NCBI GenBank assembly: GCA_001799195.1
Contig: MGSU01000087.1
Span: 1-13,478 of the forward strand
DNA length: 13,478 nucleotides
Direction of reading: 5' to 3'
Origin: Deltaproteobacteria bacterium RIFOXYA12_FULL_61_11
Lineage (GTDB): Bacteria; Bdellovibrionota_F; JAHFAK01; YA12-FULL-61-11
The position numbers and the translations under genes were made by a program. Under the pieces are notes generated by a model. It made no database searches. It was not told the origin of the DNA and was given only the letters and a program-made list of their open reading frames with translations. Shown piece by piece: positions 2,074 to 12,723 of this stretch; within the stretch, counting starts at the first letter, position 1; the number at the start of each line of letters is the position of its first letter.

Positions 2074-5000
2074 TTATTCGATCACATGCAGGAGTATGGG
2101 GAGGATAATCTTGCCATGGTCCGGGTCATTGCTGCGCAGGACGAGTTGAGCAGCGTGATCGCCGGGCTCGAGGTCCCGGGCATCGAACGCGAGCAGGAGT
2201 TCCATTTCCTGTCCCGTCGGGAGTTTCGCCGTCTTCGGAGAGTATCCCAACCATTCCACCTTGCGGCGTATCCGTGCTGCGACTCCGGCAAGATTGGCTT
2301 TCGGCCGGTAGTACACCAACAGACCCGTGATCGCTTGTTTGTCTTGAATGCCGGCGACCATCAAGGTGATGCTGTCGGTGCGTTGGTAGCGGAAGTCGAT
2401 ATGTCCGCTGGGGTACAGCACGACCTGGAAGGTTGCCCGGTACTTGTCGGCCGAGCCGATCCAGACGTCCTGGTATTGCACGATGAAGCGTTCGGCGTTG
2501 CCGTGGTAATAGACCGCGCTATCTGATCCGATGGTCAGGTTTTGCCAGAGCGGAGCAATCAATTCGCTCAGATTTTTGTAAGCATAGGGGATTTTGAAGC
2601 CATAGTTGGTGCTGTCGCTGATCGGGGCAAAGGTCAACAGTCCATTGCTGACCGCATGAACGGCAGTGTGCACAGCGGAGTAGTATGGGAAGGGGAAAGG
2701 CAAGGCCAGCGGGTCGCTGTAGCCGTCGTCGGTACCAGGCCGGTTGCTGACCGGGTGCCAGGTCGCGATAGCGGTGCCGAACGAGGAGATGTCTTCCCAG
2801 ACGAAAGCCGGTCCCTTGGGGTCATTGCTATCGCGGAAGGTGTAGCCCGCGTCGTCAGGGCCTCCGGCATCGCGATCTCGCAGGAGTTGGTGGCTCAGAC
2901 CGAGGTCCAGGATGCCGAGACCGCTGTTGCGCACGACGAGGGTGGCTTTACCAATCGAACCCGCCTGGAGAGTGAGTTCTACCGAGGTCTGGTCGAGTTC
3001 CAGGGCAGGAGCTGCTTGGACGACGATCGAGAGTTCCTGGTTCCAGGACAACCCGTCTTCGGCAGAGAAGGTCAGCCGCAGCGTAGCTTCGTACCCGTCG
3101 GGGGTCTCGGGTGCGATAGCCAGTAAGAAGCCATTGACCGGTCGGGCATCGCCGGGGTTCAGGTCGCCGATGCCGAGCATGGGGAGTTCGAGATTCAGAT
3201 AGCGGTCACCGAGCGTCAGCCGGGCCGAGACTGCTTGGACTGCTGCTTTGCCGAAGTTGTTGACCGTCATGGCCAGGGATACTTTTTCCCCGGCCTCGGG
3301 TATGCCATCCCCGTCACCGTGGGCTGTGTCGTCATAGCGCACAGAGGTGGCCGAAACAAAGGCTGCTCCGGTTGCGCTGGGGCGGATGACCGATCGATAG
3401 GGGAAGGCATCATGGGCAGAGCCGACCACGGTAATGAGGGTGTTGTCGGTGAGAGGGCGGAACAGGGAAATGGTGGCCCGACCCTGTTCGAGGTGTCCGG
3501 CGCCAATCATCTCGTCGTGCTGGAGCAAGGCAACGTGGGTCCCCGGGAGGTCGGTCTCGATGGTAACCTCGGTGGAGCCGAAGGGGATTTCTGCCGGGTG
3601 GGTGAGCCCCAGTTTCCGGGGATAGCGGGTGCGGAGTTGCATCGAAGGGTCGCCGAACCAATGGAACATCTCGAATTCGACGGTCTTGTATTCCGGCCAT
3701 TTTGCCCAGATGTTCTCACCGGCAACCTTCCCATAGGTCACGATGTGACCGAGGCGGTACTCGGGGGTTGAACCGCCATAGCCTGGGACGAAATCGGGGT
3801 ACACCGCGTCGTAGAATCCTTTGAAGATCATGTCGTTCCAGCCGCTATAGCTGACCCGGGTGGCGGCCACCACGCCGACGGCGCCGCCCTGCGGATTGCG
3901 TTCCCAGGCTTCCGAGAAATGCACTTCTTCGAAGGGGGTGGAATTGTTCTTGTCGGTCTCGTTGTCGAACCAACCGGTCTGACAATTGATGGAGAAGACT
4001 ACCGGAGTTTTCTTGCCATTGTTGATGGAGAGGACATCGGCGACGGTGAATTTCGGATCACCCCAACCCCAGGTTGCGCCGTGGTCGCGGTGATTGAGTA
4101 CGAGACGGCCCTGTTCGATGGCTGCAATGATATCCTCGCGATCACCGTCCCAGGCGAAGTTTGGCCGGCGCAGCTCGTCCGGGATCGGTTCGCCGTTAGC
4201 ATAGGTGCCTTTGTTCCAATACAGGGGATTGACGTCTGGCTCGGTCACATAGATGCGGTCCACTGCCAGACCCTTTTTCTGGAGGTGGGTGCGGGTTTCC
4301 TCCGAGGTGAGGACGAAACGACGTTCGGCGTAACCGTTTCCGGCGTGCTGGAAATAGGCAGCATTGGCCGCGCGGGTGTAATAGCTTTGATCGTCGATGG
4401 GGTCGAATTCGTAGGCCAGGATCTTGTTCACCGAGTGCTCGGCCTGCTCCAAGGTGTCGACCGAAATGCGGCCGTGGGAAATATCGGCGTAGAGATCCTC
4501 GCCGTCGATCGCGGCATAGTAGAGGTCGGTGCCGGTGAGGCCTGGGTTGTAGGGGTGTTTGGTGCGGTAATTGGTCGGCACGAATTCGGAGTCACCCAGC
4601 AGAAGAAGGAAAGAAGGAGCCGGTTGCCAGGTCGAGTAGGCGTTCTTGATATAGGCTACAAGCTGTTCGGCGCTGCGGCCGAGTTGGTCCATGGTCACGA
4701 TGCGGGTACTCAGGCCGAGTAATCGTTTGGCCTTGGCGAGGCGTTTCGCTGCGGGAAGGAAACGATCATCGGTGACGATGAGGTAGTCCGCACCCTCACC
4801 CCCGGAGCGGCGCCAGTCGTACTTGACCCGTTCGAGGCTGTCCCGGTTGACGACGAGGTTGCGATACAACCCGTCGAACCAGGGCGAATAGGTTCGAGTA
4901 TGAAAGAAATGGCCCTGGGAACCTTTGAAAGTGACGCGGACACGGATGGTGGGGTGGGTCACCAGGGTGCGTTCGGCTCCCAGGTATTGCACGGGGAAGA

Positions 5001-5529
5001 AACGTAAAAGGAGTAGATCCAGACCGCGTAGGGTGGTCCTTCCATCGGCCAGCACCGGTGCAGAGGGATAGAGGTTCCGGGAGCTGTAGCTGGCTGGATC
5101 GAAAGCGAAGGGAGGAGTAGGTAGGCCGACCCCGTCGGCGGCGGGTGGTTGGGACGGGTAGACCAGGTAGTCGCCGTACTCTAGGTTTTCCGTTTGCACG
5201 GTGACCTCGACCGAGGCTCCTTTCGGAACGGCCAGGAAGTGGGTATAGGTCGGCAGAGCCGGTTTCCCCGGGTCGATAATCATGCCCTGGTCGGGCATGG
5301 TCACGGTGTGGAAGGTCTGACCGGCAACCTCGAGTTCGTCGAGATAGGCGCCGGGGGAGCGCAGGATTAAACTCACCCCCTGATGATCCTGCCGTTCCAC
5401 CTCGAGGACCGGGGGGGCACTTTCATCACTGCTGCCGAAGGGGAGGAAGGTTGCAGCATGTGATCTTTCAGCGGTGAACAGGGAGAGTAAGATGATAGAG
5501 GTGACAATTGCAAGACCACGGACTATCAT
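2074..5529 (-). CDS. Gingipain-like secreted cysteine protease (peptidase family C25)
   Basis: The 1151-aa product begins with a signal peptide (about residues 1-26, cleavage likely after SHA). Residues 40-240 resemble the gingipain propeptide, with the conserved GKPALPTYTHFLAVPKG stretch. The catalytic domain is about 245-640: ADYLIVTDDRF, FLLLLGDSEFVPT, the His-Gly block RLVLNHRDHG (H483) and the Asn-Cys block VVFSINCQTG (C516). A hydrophobic strand before H-G and before [N]-C is the clan CD signature, and the 33-residue His-Cys spacing matches my recollection of RgpB (H211/C244). An Ig-like C25 C-terminal domain (about 641-715) follows, then a CARDB-like domain (725-835) with a DGDGIPEAGE turn, and finally an Ig-like domain (845-1151) interrupted by a beta-sandwich module (895-1060). 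It lacks a recognisable Bacteroidetes type IX sorting domain. The start has a GAGGGGGAAG ribosome-binding site just upstream on the complement. It likely cleaves proteins outside the cell or at the surface; substrate specificity cannot be read. Confidence 0.92.
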   Translation of the reverse strand: MIVRGLAIVTSIILLSLFTAERSHAATFLPFGSSDESAPPVLEVERQDHQGVSLILRSPGAYLDELEVAGQTFHTVTMPDQGMIIDPGKPALPTYTHFLAVPKGASVEVTVQTENLEYGDYLVYPSQPPAADGVGLPTPPFAFDPASYSSRNLYPSAPVLADGRTTLRGLDLLLLRFFPVQYLGAERTLVTHPTIRVRVTFKGSQGHFFHTRTYSPWFDGLYRNLVVNRDSLERVKYDWRRSGGEGADYLIVTDDRFLPAAKRLAKAKRLLGLSTRIVTMDQLGRSAEQLVAYIKNAYSTWQPAPSFLLLLGDSEFVPTNYRTKHPYNPGLTGTDLYYAAIDGEDLYADISHGRISVDTLEQAEHSVNKILAYEFDPIDDQSYYTRAANAAYFQHAGNGYAERRFVLTSEETRTHLQKKGLAVDRIYVTEPDVNPLYWNKGTYANGEPIPDELRRPNFAWDGDREDIIAAIEQGRLVLNHRDHGATWGWGDPKFTVADVLSINNGKKTPVVFSINCQTGWFDNETDKNNSTPFEEVHFSEAWERNPQGGAVGVVAATRVSYSGWNDMIFKGFYDAVYPDFVPGYGGSTPEYRLGHIVTYGKVAGENIWAKWPEYKTVEFEMFHWFGDPSMQLRTRYPRKLGLTHPAEIPFGSTEVTIETDLPGTHVALLQHDEMIGAGHLEQGRATISLFRPLTDNTLITVVGSAHDAFPYRSVIRPSATGAAFVSATSVRYDDTAHGDGDGIPEAGEKVSLAMTVNNFGKAAVQAVSARLTLGDRYLNLELPMLGIGDLNPGDARPVNGFLLAIAPETPDGYEATLRLTFSAEDGLSWNQELSIVVQAAPALELDQTSVELTLQAGSIGKATLVVRNSGLGILDLGLSHQLLRDRDAGGPDDAGYTFRDSNDPKGPAFVWEDISSFGTAIATWHPVSNRPGTDDGYSDPLALPFPFPYYSAVHTAVHAVSNGLLTFAPISDSTNYGFKIPYAYKNLSELIAPLWQNLTIGSDSAVYYHGNAERFIVQYQDVWIGSADKYRATFQVVLYPSGHIDFRYQRTDSITLMVAGIQDKQAITGLLVYYRPKANLAGVAARIRRKVEWLGYSPKTAKLPTGQEMELLLAFDARDLEPGDHAAQLVLRSNDPDHGKIILPILLHVIE

Positions 5530-7850: not shown

Positions 7851-9983
7851 ATGAAGAAGACCGTGCTGGTTGCGATACTCCTGTTTCTGGGGATCGGGTT
7901 GCTGTTGACCGTTGGGTGCAGCGACACGGTCAAGGATATCAAGGACGCGGCCGACAATGTCGGTGACACCGTCAGCGCATCCAAGCAGAACTTCAATCGC
8001 ACCGTCAGTACCCTGAAAGACCATAAACGCAGCCTGACCACGCTCAAGAAGAGCCAGTACAAACTGCAGAAGGTCAACAAGCAGCTCTCCAAGGTCAAGG
8101 AGAACACCAAGAAGATCAGCGAGAAATCCGGTGAGTTCAAGCAACGCGCCGAGCAGAGCCGCTCCCAGAGCGCCTTCTATTTCCTAACTCAGACCGATGA
8201 CGAGTTTTGCATCGAGTTCCCCGAGTATTGCACCGACCTCGATGCCAGTGACGACTACACCTATGACTACGATGTCAGCGACGATTACGACTACGATTAC
8301 GATCTCAGCGACGATTACACCTATGACTACGACCTGAGCGACGACTACGATTGGGACAGTTACGAGTGCGATCCCCAGGTCGATTGGTGGTGCAGCGAGG
8401 ACGACACGGACTGGGATTCCGGCCTGTGGGATTACGGCAGCTTCGACATGAGCGATGATTATTGCGCCGAGGACCCCTCTCTGTGCGAGTTCAGTTACCA
8501 GGACGAGACCAAACCCGAGCCTCCGACCCTCGAGATGGCCTTCGACTTCGAGGACGGTGGAGCCACGGTACATGTGACTACCTCGGCTGAAATGAGTGAT
8601 TCCGAGCTGTTCGGGAAAGCCAGCCTGCTCAAGGTGATTCTCGTCGAGACCTATGATCCCTCCACCCTCAGCAGCGGCTATGAGGATCTCGACTTCGATG
8701 AATTCGAGGAATTCGAGGAGTTCGACGACGACTATTATACCGACCTCTTTGGCGAGGACTACGATCTCGAGGGCGATGCGCCCCTGTTCCTGACTCAGGA
8801 CGAGGTCAGCGAAGACGAGCCGCTGCTCGGGTCTGACCTTGAGGATGATCCGCTGCTCGGGGAGGAACCCGAGGCGGTCGCCACCACCGCTGCGGACGAA
8901 GACGTCGCGCCGGCCTTTACCCTCGACACCTTCGGCCTGTGGTCCTTCGGCGATATCGTCAAGCGCACCACCACCTTCTACGTCTTCCCGGCTTACGATA
9001 GCCTGGAAACAGCGTGTTTCTCGGGCGATGAGAAGCAGTGCGTGCAGATGTCCAAGTTCTGGGAAGCCTGGGTCTTCTCATCCTGGGACGCGGTCATGGG
9101 CATGCCGCGCACCGAGGAGATCGAATACCTCGACGGCACGAAAGAGAACACCAGCACGGTCTTCGACACCTCCTCGGACGAAACCATGATGGTCTACGAG
9201 GAGACCGTCACCGGCACCACGACCTATCCCGAGGACCAGGATCTGCCCAAGCTCATGCTCGAAGGCGAGGAACAGGGCGAGGACGATACGGTCGTGCTCA
9301 CTGCCGATGGCGAAGCCAGCGGGGACGAATCGCTCGAAGATTACGACCTCGAAGATCTCGACGCGTTCTGGGCCGAACTCGAACTCGAGGCAGGGAGCTG
9401 GGTGGTGAAGAAAGAAGAGTACACCACCAGCTTCCGCATGGTTATGTACTTCGAGGGCGAGATGGTCGGCAAGGATGAGTTCAGCGGCAGCGAGGCCCGC
9501 AAGACTACCTATGCCGATGACCGGGTCGAGGAAGAGTACCTGCGCTACTCCTTCGACGACAAGGGCAACTACAAGGTCACCTATTACCCTGACAAGGACA
9601 TGACACCCGGGACCGAGGTCGACAGCTTTACCATCTCCGCCGATGGCAACACCATAGCCGGAGGTTTCGAGATGGATGAGGACGAGAGCATCCGCTATAC
9701 TTCGGCCGTGGATCCGGAAACCGGCAAAGAACTCCTGACCTTGGTCTTTGTCGACGCAGAGGGTGAGGATTATGCTGAGTTGAAGGTGACCCTCGACCCG
9801 ACCGGCGCGGGTAAGGGTATCTTCAAGGACCTGACTGACAATACCGAGTTCAAGGTCGAATACACGGCCGATGGTGACATTGTCATCCTCGGTGACGACG
9901 GCAAACCGATCCAGGAGCTACTCGAGGCCGATGCTTCCGCCGATGCTTCCGCCGATACTGCCGAAATACCGGTCGAAGAGTAA
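7851..9983 (+). CDS. Very acidic repeat-containing lipoprotein, 710 aa, function unknown
   Basis: I do not recognise a named family. The N-terminus is a lipoprotein signal (hydrophobic run then LLTVGC, C23 modified), with Ser at +2 favouring outer-membrane sorting. Residues 25-105 are rich in Lys, Ser and Leu in heptad-like spacing and likely form a coiled-coil stalk. Residues 115-220 are dominated by Asp/Tyr repeats, four copies of a 10-residue unit at 133-172. Further acidic runs follow (280-345, including FDEFEEFEEF and two PLLG motifs), while about 350-480 and 490-690 look like beta-rich domains with many Thr/Tyr/Asp strands (KTTYADDRVEEEYLRYSF, NYKVTYYPDKD). The C-terminus is low-complexity (ADASADASADT). 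Eight cysteines in the mature chain form four CX6-7C pairs (120/127, 173/181, 205/212, 389/397). GAGG at 7841-7844 precedes the ATG by 6 nt. Codons are strongly biased (GAC, GAG, CTC, ACC, AAG), consistent with high expression. Cation binding or a surface layer role is inference only. Confidence 0.85.
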   Translation: MKKTVLVAILLFLGIGLLLTVGCSDTVKDIKDAADNVGDTVSASKQNFNRTVSTLKDHKRSLTTLKKSQYKLQKVNKQLSKVKENTKKISEKSGEFKQRAEQSRSQSAFYFLTQTDDEFCIEFPEYCTDLDASDDYTYDYDVSDDYDYDYDLSDDYTYDYDLSDDYDWDSYECDPQVDWWCSEDDTDWDSGLWDYGSFDMSDDYCAEDPSLCEFSYQDETKPEPPTLEMAFDFEDGGATVHVTTSAEMSDSELFGKASLLKVILVETYDPSTLSSGYEDLDFDEFEEFEEFDDDYYTDLFGEDYDLEGDAPLFLTQDEVSEDEPLLGSDLEDDPLLGEEPEAVATTAADEDVAPAFTLDTFGLWSFGDIVKRTTTFYVFPAYDSLETACFSGDEKQCVQMSKFWEAWVFSSWDAVMGMPRTEEIEYLDGTKENTSTVFDTSSDETMMVYEETVTGTTTYPEDQDLPKLMLEGEEQGEDDTVVLTADGEASGDESLEDYDLEDLDAFWAELELEAGSWVVKKEEYTTSFRMVMYFEGEMVGKDEFSGSEARKTTYADDRVEEEYLRYSFDDKGNYKVTYYPDKDMTPGTEVDSFTISADGNTIAGGFEMDEDESIRYTSAVDPETGKELLTLVFVDAEGEDYAELKVTLDPTGAGKGIFKDLTDNTEFKVEYTADGDIVILGDDGKPIQELLEADASADASADTAEIPVEE
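8247..8366 (+). repeat. Four tandem 30-bp coding repeats (Asp/Tyr decapeptide)
   Basis: Units begin at 8247, 8277, 8307 and 8337, each starting with Ser-Asp-Asp-Tyr. They encode SDDYTYDYDV, SDDYDYDYDL, SDDYTYDYDL and the diverged SDDYDWDSYE. Units 1 and 3 are nearly identical in DNA, and all copies keep the reading frame. The core SDDY recurs at residues 200-204 (MSDDY) outside the array. This is a protein repeat, likely to bind cations or form extended acidic surface, and it could vary in copy number between strains. Confidence 0.85.
9927..9950 (+). repeat. 12-bp tandem repeat near the C-terminus of the acidic lipoprotein
   Basis: The 12-mer gccgatgcttcc occurs twice in perfect tandem, followed by a partial third copy (gccgatact). 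It encodes Ala-Asp-Ala-Ser twice, then Ala-Asp-Thr. Because the unit is a multiple of three, slippage would change length without breaking the frame. Confidence 0.7.
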
Positions 9984-10155
9984 GCTCGCGATCATTCTTG
10001 CTACCTCCTCCTCCCCTTGAAACGTGCCCAGGTCTACCCTTTCCCAGAGCATTTTTCATAAGTTGGAATGTGAGAAGGAAAGTGCTGGACTTCCCCTTCC
10101 GGATCGGCTAGGTAGTGATCCTTCGTCCGAGGCGCATGACCAACGGAGGTAGACG

Positions 10156-10245
10156 GTGTCCAGCGTCATCAAGAAACGGCGCAAGAAGATGCGCAAGCAC
10201 AAGCATAAGAAGTTACGGAGAAGGAACCGTCATAAGAAGAAGTAA
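10156..10245 (+). CDS. AURKAIP1/COX24-family small basic ribosomal protein (mS38/bS22-like), 29 aa
   Basis: A 29-codon frame starts with GTG. An excellent ribosome-binding site, GGAGGT (10145-10150), lies 5 nt upstream, and an in-frame TAG at 10150-10152 rules out a longer protein. The product begins (M)SSVIKKRRKK and ends RRRNRHKKK; 18 of 29 residues are Lys or Arg and 3 are His. The start S-V-[IV]-K-K-R-R-K, the central KHKHKKLRRR and the end NRHKKK match the AURKAIP1/COX24 family, which includes mitochondrial mS38 and the roughly 33-aa mycobacterial bS22. In those ribosomes the protein threads into rRNA of the small subunit near the decoding region; the same role here follows from family membership. 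It is a separate gene 172 bp after the acidic lipoprotein and converges on the RND gene. The intervening 9984-10155 holds a short inverted repeat (GGATC 10101-10105 / GATCC 10117-10121) but no clear terminator or promoter. Confidence 0.88.
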   Translation: MSSVIKKRRKKMRKHKHKKLRRRNRHKKK

Positions 10246-10383: not shown

Positions 10384-12723
10384 TCACTGTTTTCTGAACG
10401 GTTTGAAAAGTATGAGCAAGAGGGGGAGGAGTACCAGATCTCCCGGAAGTGCGAAGAGCATGGTCAAGGCAGAGAGCAGACCGAAATTGGTCGTCGGATT
10501 GAAACTGCCCAGCACCAGGACCAGGAAACCCGACATCAGAACCAGGGAGGTCGCGACAATGGCCGGTCCGACCTTGGTAGCGGTATTGCGGGCTGCGAGG
10601 GGGTACTCGCCGTGACGCCGGAGTTCGAGAGAGAAGTGATTGAGATAGTGGATGGTGTCGTCGACCACAATGCCCAAGGCGATTCCCCCCATGAGTACGG
10701 TGCCGGGATCGATGGGTATGTGTAAGTACCCCATCAACCCCACGGTCAAGGCAATGGGTAGGATATTGGGCACCATGGCCAGGGCTGCGAGACCGACCTG
10801 CCGGGTGAGGCCCCACAGGAACAGGAACACCATACCGAAGGCTACGAGCAAGCTGGTCGTCTGACTGCGCAGTAGTAGCTCGTCGAGTTTACGGTACATG
10901 GGGACCAGACCGGTGACCCGCGCCCCGCTCTCACCGAACCAACGCTGCATACTGGCGCGAATGCGAGAAAGACCCTCGCGATAGGTTTGACTCACGCTGA
11001 GACGCAAGCGAGTGCTGATGCGAGCGGTCGAGTAATCGTGGTTCACGTAGCGCGGCAGGTCCTGGTCCCCGGCTGTTTCTGCCAAGAGAAGGTATTGCGC
11101 GGTCTGTTCGCGGGTTGGGGGCTGATCCTCCAAATCGAGGTCACCCAGCGAACGGTGGATGGCAGCGAGATAATCAATGTAGGAGGTAGTGCCGGTCACC
11201 CTTGGTTGGGTTTCGACTTCGGCTTGGAAGGCGGCGATGGCGCCAACCAGGTGAGGATCCTTGGCCGAATCTTCTTCACCTCGGAGCATGACCTCGACGT
11301 TGCCCAGCCCGGTAATCCGGTCCTGGATCTGGCGCAGCCCCTCGCGAACGGGATGGTCCTGGTGCAGGAATTCCATGGCACTGACCTCGATCCTGACCCG
11401 GGTGATACCCACGCACGCAACGACCAGGATCCCAAGGGTTATCGCCAAGACCAACCCTTGGTGGCGCAAGGTCCAATCCGTGGTCGAGCGAAGAATATGC
11501 ACGGAGGTGCCCATTGCAGGGGTTGTGATCCGTTGGGCATAGTTGCAGGGTATCCACTGTTTGGGCAGGAGTGAGAGCAGTACGGGGATATAGACAATGG
11601 TCAAGAGGTAGGCCAAGAGGCTGCCCAGACCGGCGAATAAACCGAGATTGCGGATGGGTGCAACCTCGGAGGTGAGGAAGGAGAAGAACCCGGCCGCGGT
11701 GGTAATCGAGGTGTAGAAGCATGGTCTGGCTTCTTCCGCCACCGCACACAAGAGGGTCGAGCGGAACTCGCATCCTCTATAGAGCGTCCGAAAACGATGC
11801 AGTATGTGAATGCTGTCCCCGATAGTCACCGCGAGGACGATCGGCACTACCATGGCGAAGACCATGTTGCTGGTGGGATGGAACCAGTAATAGCCCCCGA
11901 TGGTGGAGAAGATCACCGCGAGTTGGACGGAGAAGGGCACGAGCATGAGGCCGAAGTGCCTGAAAATGAGCAGAAAGAGGAGAGCTGAGACGAGGAGGAC
12001 CACGGGGAAGAATCGTTGTTGATCGGAGCACGCCAGCTTGTCGACCGTGATGTCCATCACCGGGGTGCCGGTGAAATGGGTAATGGATCCAGGCCGGCGC
12101 GTCTTGAAGTCGGACAAGATGGTCTCGATGGTGTGTATCAGAGTAGCTTTGATCGGATGGGAGAGATCGGCTTGGAGACGGCCGAGGATGAGGACAGCAT
12201 CCCGTTCGGGGGACAAGAGATGGCCGACGAAGCGGAGACCTCGGTCGATCCGGGCTCTGCCTCGCTCGATCACCTCTGGGGTCAATGGTTCGTCGAGGGA
12301 GAAGGGGGGGGCGATCACGAGTTCACCGGCACTGTTCTCGATAACGCTCGTCGTGAAGATGCTACTCACCTCGCGGAGGTTCGGAACGGTGCGTAACTGT
12401 TGTACCAGCTCTCGTTGAGCCTCGAGTTGGAGGCGGTCGAGTTGTTTTGAGCCCACTATCGCCACGGCGACGAGTTCGTCGGATTCGAATTCGTCCTTGA
12501 ACTGCCGGTAAAGCTGGTAATCGGGGTCATCGGCCTCGAACCACACATCGAAGGAATTGTCCTGTCGGCCGAAATGGGTCGCGGTGCGCCAGACCATAGG
12601 AGTAATCAGGCTCATTGCCAGGAGCAGGGCAAGGATGCGATGTTCCAGGGCAATATCCGCCAGGGCGGTCATCGCTCTCTCGAAGGGCAGGAGCTTACCC
12701 GGATCCTCGGATGTCTTTGTCAT
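10384..12723 (-). CDS. RND-superfamily exporter, MMPL/COG1033 type
   Basis: The 779-aa protein has the RND fold with an internal repeat: TM1 (about 28-46), a periplasmic loop (50-235), TM2-6 (238-388), TM7 (422-442), a second loop (445-618) and TM8-12 (622-775). The acidic residues expected in TM4 and TM10 are in VTIGDSIHILHRF (D303) and GIVVDDTIHYLNHF (D688, D689), the proton-relay positions of this superfamily. The paired [GD]-D-[ST]-I-H motifs and the short size (RND drug pumps are about 1030 aa) place it with COG1033/MMPL-like exporters, which move lipids or hydrophobic compounds; the substrate here is unknown. GAGAGG (complement of 12730-12735), 6 nt before the ATG, is its ribosome-binding site and lies inside the palindrome GAGAG-C-CTCTC (12725-12735). 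No membrane-fusion protein or outer-membrane channel gene is adjacent. A 14-codon ORF overlaps its start by ATGA. It converges on the small ribosomal gene. Confidence 0.93.
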   Translation of the reverse strand: MTKTSEDPGKLLPFERAMTALADIALEHRILALLLAMSLITPMVWRTATHFGRQDNSFDVWFEADDPDYQLYRQFKDEFESDELVAVAIVGSKQLDRLQLEAQRELVQQLRTVPNLREVSSIFTTSVIENSAGELVIAPPFSLDEPLTPEVIERGRARIDRGLRFVGHLLSPERDAVLILGRLQADLSHPIKATLIHTIETILSDFKTRRPGSITHFTGTPVMDITVDKLACSDQQRFFPVVLLVSALLFLLIFRHFGLMLVPFSVQLAVIFSTIGGYYWFHPTSNMVFAMVVPIVLAVTIGDSIHILHRFRTLYRGCEFRSTLLCAVAEEARPCFYTSITTAAGFFSFLTSEVAPIRNLGLFAGLGSLLAYLLTIVYIPVLLSLLPKQWIPCNYAQRITTPAMGTSVHILRSTTDWTLRHQGLVLAITLGILVVACVGITRVRIEVSAMEFLHQDHPVREGLRQIQDRITGLGNVEVMLRGEEDSAKDPHLVGAIAAFQAEVETQPRVTGTTSYIDYLAAIHRSLGDLDLEDQPPTREQTAQYLLLAETAGDQDLPRYVNHDYSTARISTRLRLSVSQTYREGLSRIRASMQRWFGESGARVTGLVPMYRKLDELLLRSQTTSLLVAFGMVFLFLWGLTRQVGLAALAMVPNILPIALTVGLMGYLHIPIDPGTVLMGGIALGIVVDDTIHYLNHFSLELRRHGEYPLAARNTATKVGPAIVATSLVLMSGFLVLVLGSFNPTTNFGLLSALTMLFALPGDLVLLPLLLILFKPFRKQ

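Follow-up and report, generated by a model that had tools for sequence, protein, structure and literature searches.

Within the 13,478-nucleotide stretch of DNA analyzed here (the window), from Deltaproteobacteria bacterium RIFOXYA12_FULL_61_11, an ORF of only 29 residues stands alone in a gap of about 400 bases, flanked by a 710-aa ORF on one side and a gene for an MMPL-family transporter on the other. Does so short a frame code for a ribosomal protein of the AURKAIP1/COX24 (bS22) family, as the original prediction had it, and does its sequence, held to combine a mycobacterial start with a Bacteroidetes end, help in placing its lineage?

Reading frame and family assignment

The frame translates as MSSVIKKRRKKMRKHKHKKLRRRNRHKKK, and the signals ascribed to it are present at exact coordinates (Table 1), i.e., the GTG start with an open frame running to TAA, the Shine-Dalgarno sequence and the in-frame stop just ahead. 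Because of this TAG, the GTG is the sole common start able to open the full conserved motif, and both the sequence and the homologue read-out give it as the only in-frame start candidate between the two. Neither a sigma-70 promoter-like site nor a + strand terminator-like site was found beside the ORF, and its mRNA leader gave no signal of structure (z −0.44).

Table 1. Positions of the probable bS22 gene, its translation signals and its neighbors in the window
Feature	Position	Strand	Remarks
bS22 (AURKAIP1/COX24 domain) ORF, probable	10156..10245	+	29 aa; GTG 10156-10158, TAA 10243-10245; from translation, profile matches and homologues
Shine-Dalgarno GGAGGT	10145..10150	+	5 nt spacing to GTG
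In-frame TAG	10150..10152	+	two codons upstream of GTG
710-aa lipoprotein-like ORF	7851-9983	+	without Pfam match; called lipoprotein-like from its N-terminus
MMPL-family transporter	10384-12723	-	neighbor of bS22 ORF

The AURKAIP1/COX24 profile, named in the original prediction as a check, is the single Pfam family matched by the peptide in hmmscan (COX24_C, PF08213; 31.3 bits, E 1.9e-7; gathering cut-off 23 bits); with the full-length homologues described below, this upholds the family assignment. The only NCBIfam model matched, that for bS22 (NF047430), aligns at 28 of its 31 positions, and its score of 31 bits lies just short of the cut-off (34 bits); this model could be biased toward the actinobacterial form. 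Among PDB sequences the best phmmer matches are bS22 chains of mycobacteria and Cutibacterium (33-aa chains, E 0.001), with weaker matches to mS38, Borrelia bS22 and a Flavobacterium protein. An alignment with 15 homologues and three PDB chains places the conserved K6, K11, H15, K16, K19 and R25 in the ORF, and its length falls within the bS22 range of about 28–33 aa. Judged by its sequence, the ORF is very probably, indeed close to certainly, a gene of its own that encodes bS22, a ribosomal protein of the small subunit.

Such ORFs are found in a wide range of genomes: COX24_C is detected at E <= 0.001 in 34 of the 386 sampled, the source genome included (30 above the cut-off), and homologues of 28–33 aa with identity up to 90% come from 33 of the 385 others. 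Of 30 such ORFs, the present one included, 16 begin with ATG, 10 with GTG and 4 with TTG, homologue starts having been assigned mechanically as the nearest candidate; GTG can thus be seen as a usual start in the family. AGGAGG-like sites precede many of the homologous ORFs.

Genomic setting and competing explanations

In the source assembly (4.64 Mb, 87% complete) the gene is single-copy in a whole-genome Pfam search (E 2.3e-7), and a search with the homologue alignment, which contains the query itself, recovers it at E 2e-10. The only other genome of the phylum in the comparison set, a 96% complete member of the same class (G001), yields no match to the homologue profile even at E 10. This absence, along with the presence of bS21 in that relative, the short contig (13.5 kb in a draft of 342) and a nearest homologue, 90% identical, from an unrelated lineage, would suit a genuine bS22 gene on a contig that was either misbinned or recently gained from a different phylum. 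Direct evidence of contamination is nevertheless absent (the estimate is 1.2%), and 29 residues of a protein strongly conserved across lineages cannot resolve ancestry, so that this account is improbable, albeit the best of the alternatives.

The surroundings contain no Rfam families or tRNAs within the window, and a plasmid comparison gave no match. When flanking ORFs were compared, small groups of homologue loci proved to have neighbors in common, and the window belongs to none of the clusters listed, many of which consist of mechanical ORFs opposite genes. At three homologue loci (L035, L041 and L046) an ORF that reads as GidA/MnmG-like lies just downstream on the same strand. As for the other proteins of the window, the N-terminus of the 710-aa ORF resembles that of a lipoprotein (LLTVGCSD), and the ORF also contains an acidic stretch, rich in Asp and Tyr, that is repeated (DDYDYDYDLSDDYTYDYD), while a 1151-aa protein (2074-5529, - strand) combines a C25 propeptide, a gingipain-type C25 peptidase and a C25 C-terminal Ig-like domain, all above the Pfam cut-off.

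Since lysine and arginine make up 62% of the peptide, a profile built from 29 distinct homologues, with the query left out, was used to score both the peptide and 20,000 random reorderings of its residues: the peptide reaches 47.8 bits and the best shuffle 15.7, with none of the 20,000 near it, and the match comes from residue order rather than composition. A functionless lysine/arginine-rich chance ORF—as the very short length, the low-complexity composition and the lack of conservation in the one same-class genome might suggest—deserves practically no credence in the face of this control, the exactly placed Shine-Dalgarno sequence and stop, and a homologue in another lineage identical at 26 of 29 positions. 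No more credible is the idea of a cationic peptide acting free of the ribosome, as an antimicrobial or to penetrate cells: the C. acnes bS22 does inhibit bacterial growth and cell-free translation (PMC10085706), but that activity belongs to a proven ribosomal protein, the 29 residues hold no secretion signal, and no export or immunity genes are evident beside the ORF. The gene for bS22 is a genuine but ordinary addition to a known family.

Sequence forms of bS22

With the bS22 of mycobacteria and Cutibacterium acnes (5o61, 5v93, 8crx), the protein of the window has in common a length of about 30 aa, a basic character and an N-terminal half of the form M-x-SVIKKRRK+M; the mycobacterial chain is identical to it at 18 of 29 positions but ends in RTRVQRRKLGK rather than NRHKKK. 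With the Borrelia burgdorferi protein (8fmw; PMC10618245) it shares a length of about 28 aa, the GUG start and the NRHKK end, whereas the N-termini differ (MPCGRKRKLKK versus MSSVIKKRRKK). The bS22-type chain of Flavobacterium johnsoniae (7jil) is likewise similar in length (30 aa) and in the NRHKKK near its end, and unlike it in its N-terminus, MPSGKKRKRHK. The sequence of chain 5 of 7jil is named inconsistently across entries, as "30S ribosomal protein S22" or "50S ribosomal protein L38". The mitochondrial mS38 (AURKAIP1/Cox24) shares the C-terminal COX24_C domain and, per published structures, the rRNA site, but is longer, an N-terminal extension being a feature of mS38.

The supposed mixture of a mycobacterial start and a Bacteroidetes end dissolves once other lineages are considered. 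The closest sequence, MGSVIKKRRKKMRKHKHKKLRDRMRHKKK (G227), is the homologue from another lineage with 26 of 29 identities mentioned above, and both it and MGSVIKKRRKKMRKHKHKKLMEKMRHKKKK (G032) show this pairing of termini; further lineages also pair an SVIKKRRKK start with an RHKKK or RHKRK end, and RHKKK, RHKRK or RHQRK endings are usual among bS22 outside the Actinobacteria-like form. At the two extremes of the range lie the form of Actinobacteria, ending in RVQRRKLGK, and that of Bacteroidetes and Borrelia, starting with MPxGxKRK, and by its sequence the protein described here represents the common bacterial form between them. A hybrid origin is ruled out by these shared combinations. As the combination is the common form, it is uninformative on placement, and the hope that it would help to place the lineage falls with it: 29 residues with cross-lineage identity of up to 90% hold no phylogenetic signal.

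Probable role in the ribosome and relation to bS21

In solved ribosomes bS22, with 55–65% basic residues, forms a bent helix in a 16S pocket of h27, h44 and h45 (with h2 too in Borrelia), contacts 23S H67/H68 and makes an inter-subunit bridge (PMC10085706, PMC10618245), and the yeast mS38 is required for efficient mitoribosome assembly and constrains h44 (PMC6582356). By analogy, we infer the same binding site and function for the present protein: it would form a short, bent helix within the 16S rRNA, buried in the pocket of h2/h27/h44/h45 close to the decoding region of the small subunit, would meet H67/H68 of the 23S rRNA upon subunit joining, and by this contact may stabilize h44 and the inter-subunit bridge. 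A search for 16S rRNA in the source assembly found none.

Mycobacteria have bS22 and lack bS21 (PMC7470450), and the source genome shows the same pattern, bS21 giving no match in its 87% complete draft, while the same-class relative has bS21 without a bS22 match; uS3 is detected in both. The missing bS21 may reflect the incompleteness of the draft. That one branch of the phylum has bS22 without bS21 and its relative the reverse, reflecting a lineage-level remodeling of platform and decoding region in the 30S subunit, is a speculative and rather doubtful reading. A general exclusion or replacement is unsupported since 24 of the 34 bS22-positive genomes in the 386-genome sample also have bS21; it is missing from 10 of these 34 as against 58 of the other 352 (Fisher p 0.09; genomes not on the positive list being scored as absent).

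The Borrelia bS22 was left out of annotation and likewise starts with GUG, and further cases of this kind were predicted from that work (PMC10618245). A short, GTG-started, unannotated bS22 was thus already known, and the gene described here fulfils that prediction; by itself it raises no new question. The anticipated widening of the known distribution holds insofar as one sparsely sampled phylum is added to the range of bS22, though the gain is modest in a family already present in many lineages. Gene callers often pass over so small a protein, and the gene also serves as an example for seeking ribosomal proteins of fewer than 30 residues with GTG or TTG starts by means of profiles rather than length-limited gene callers.
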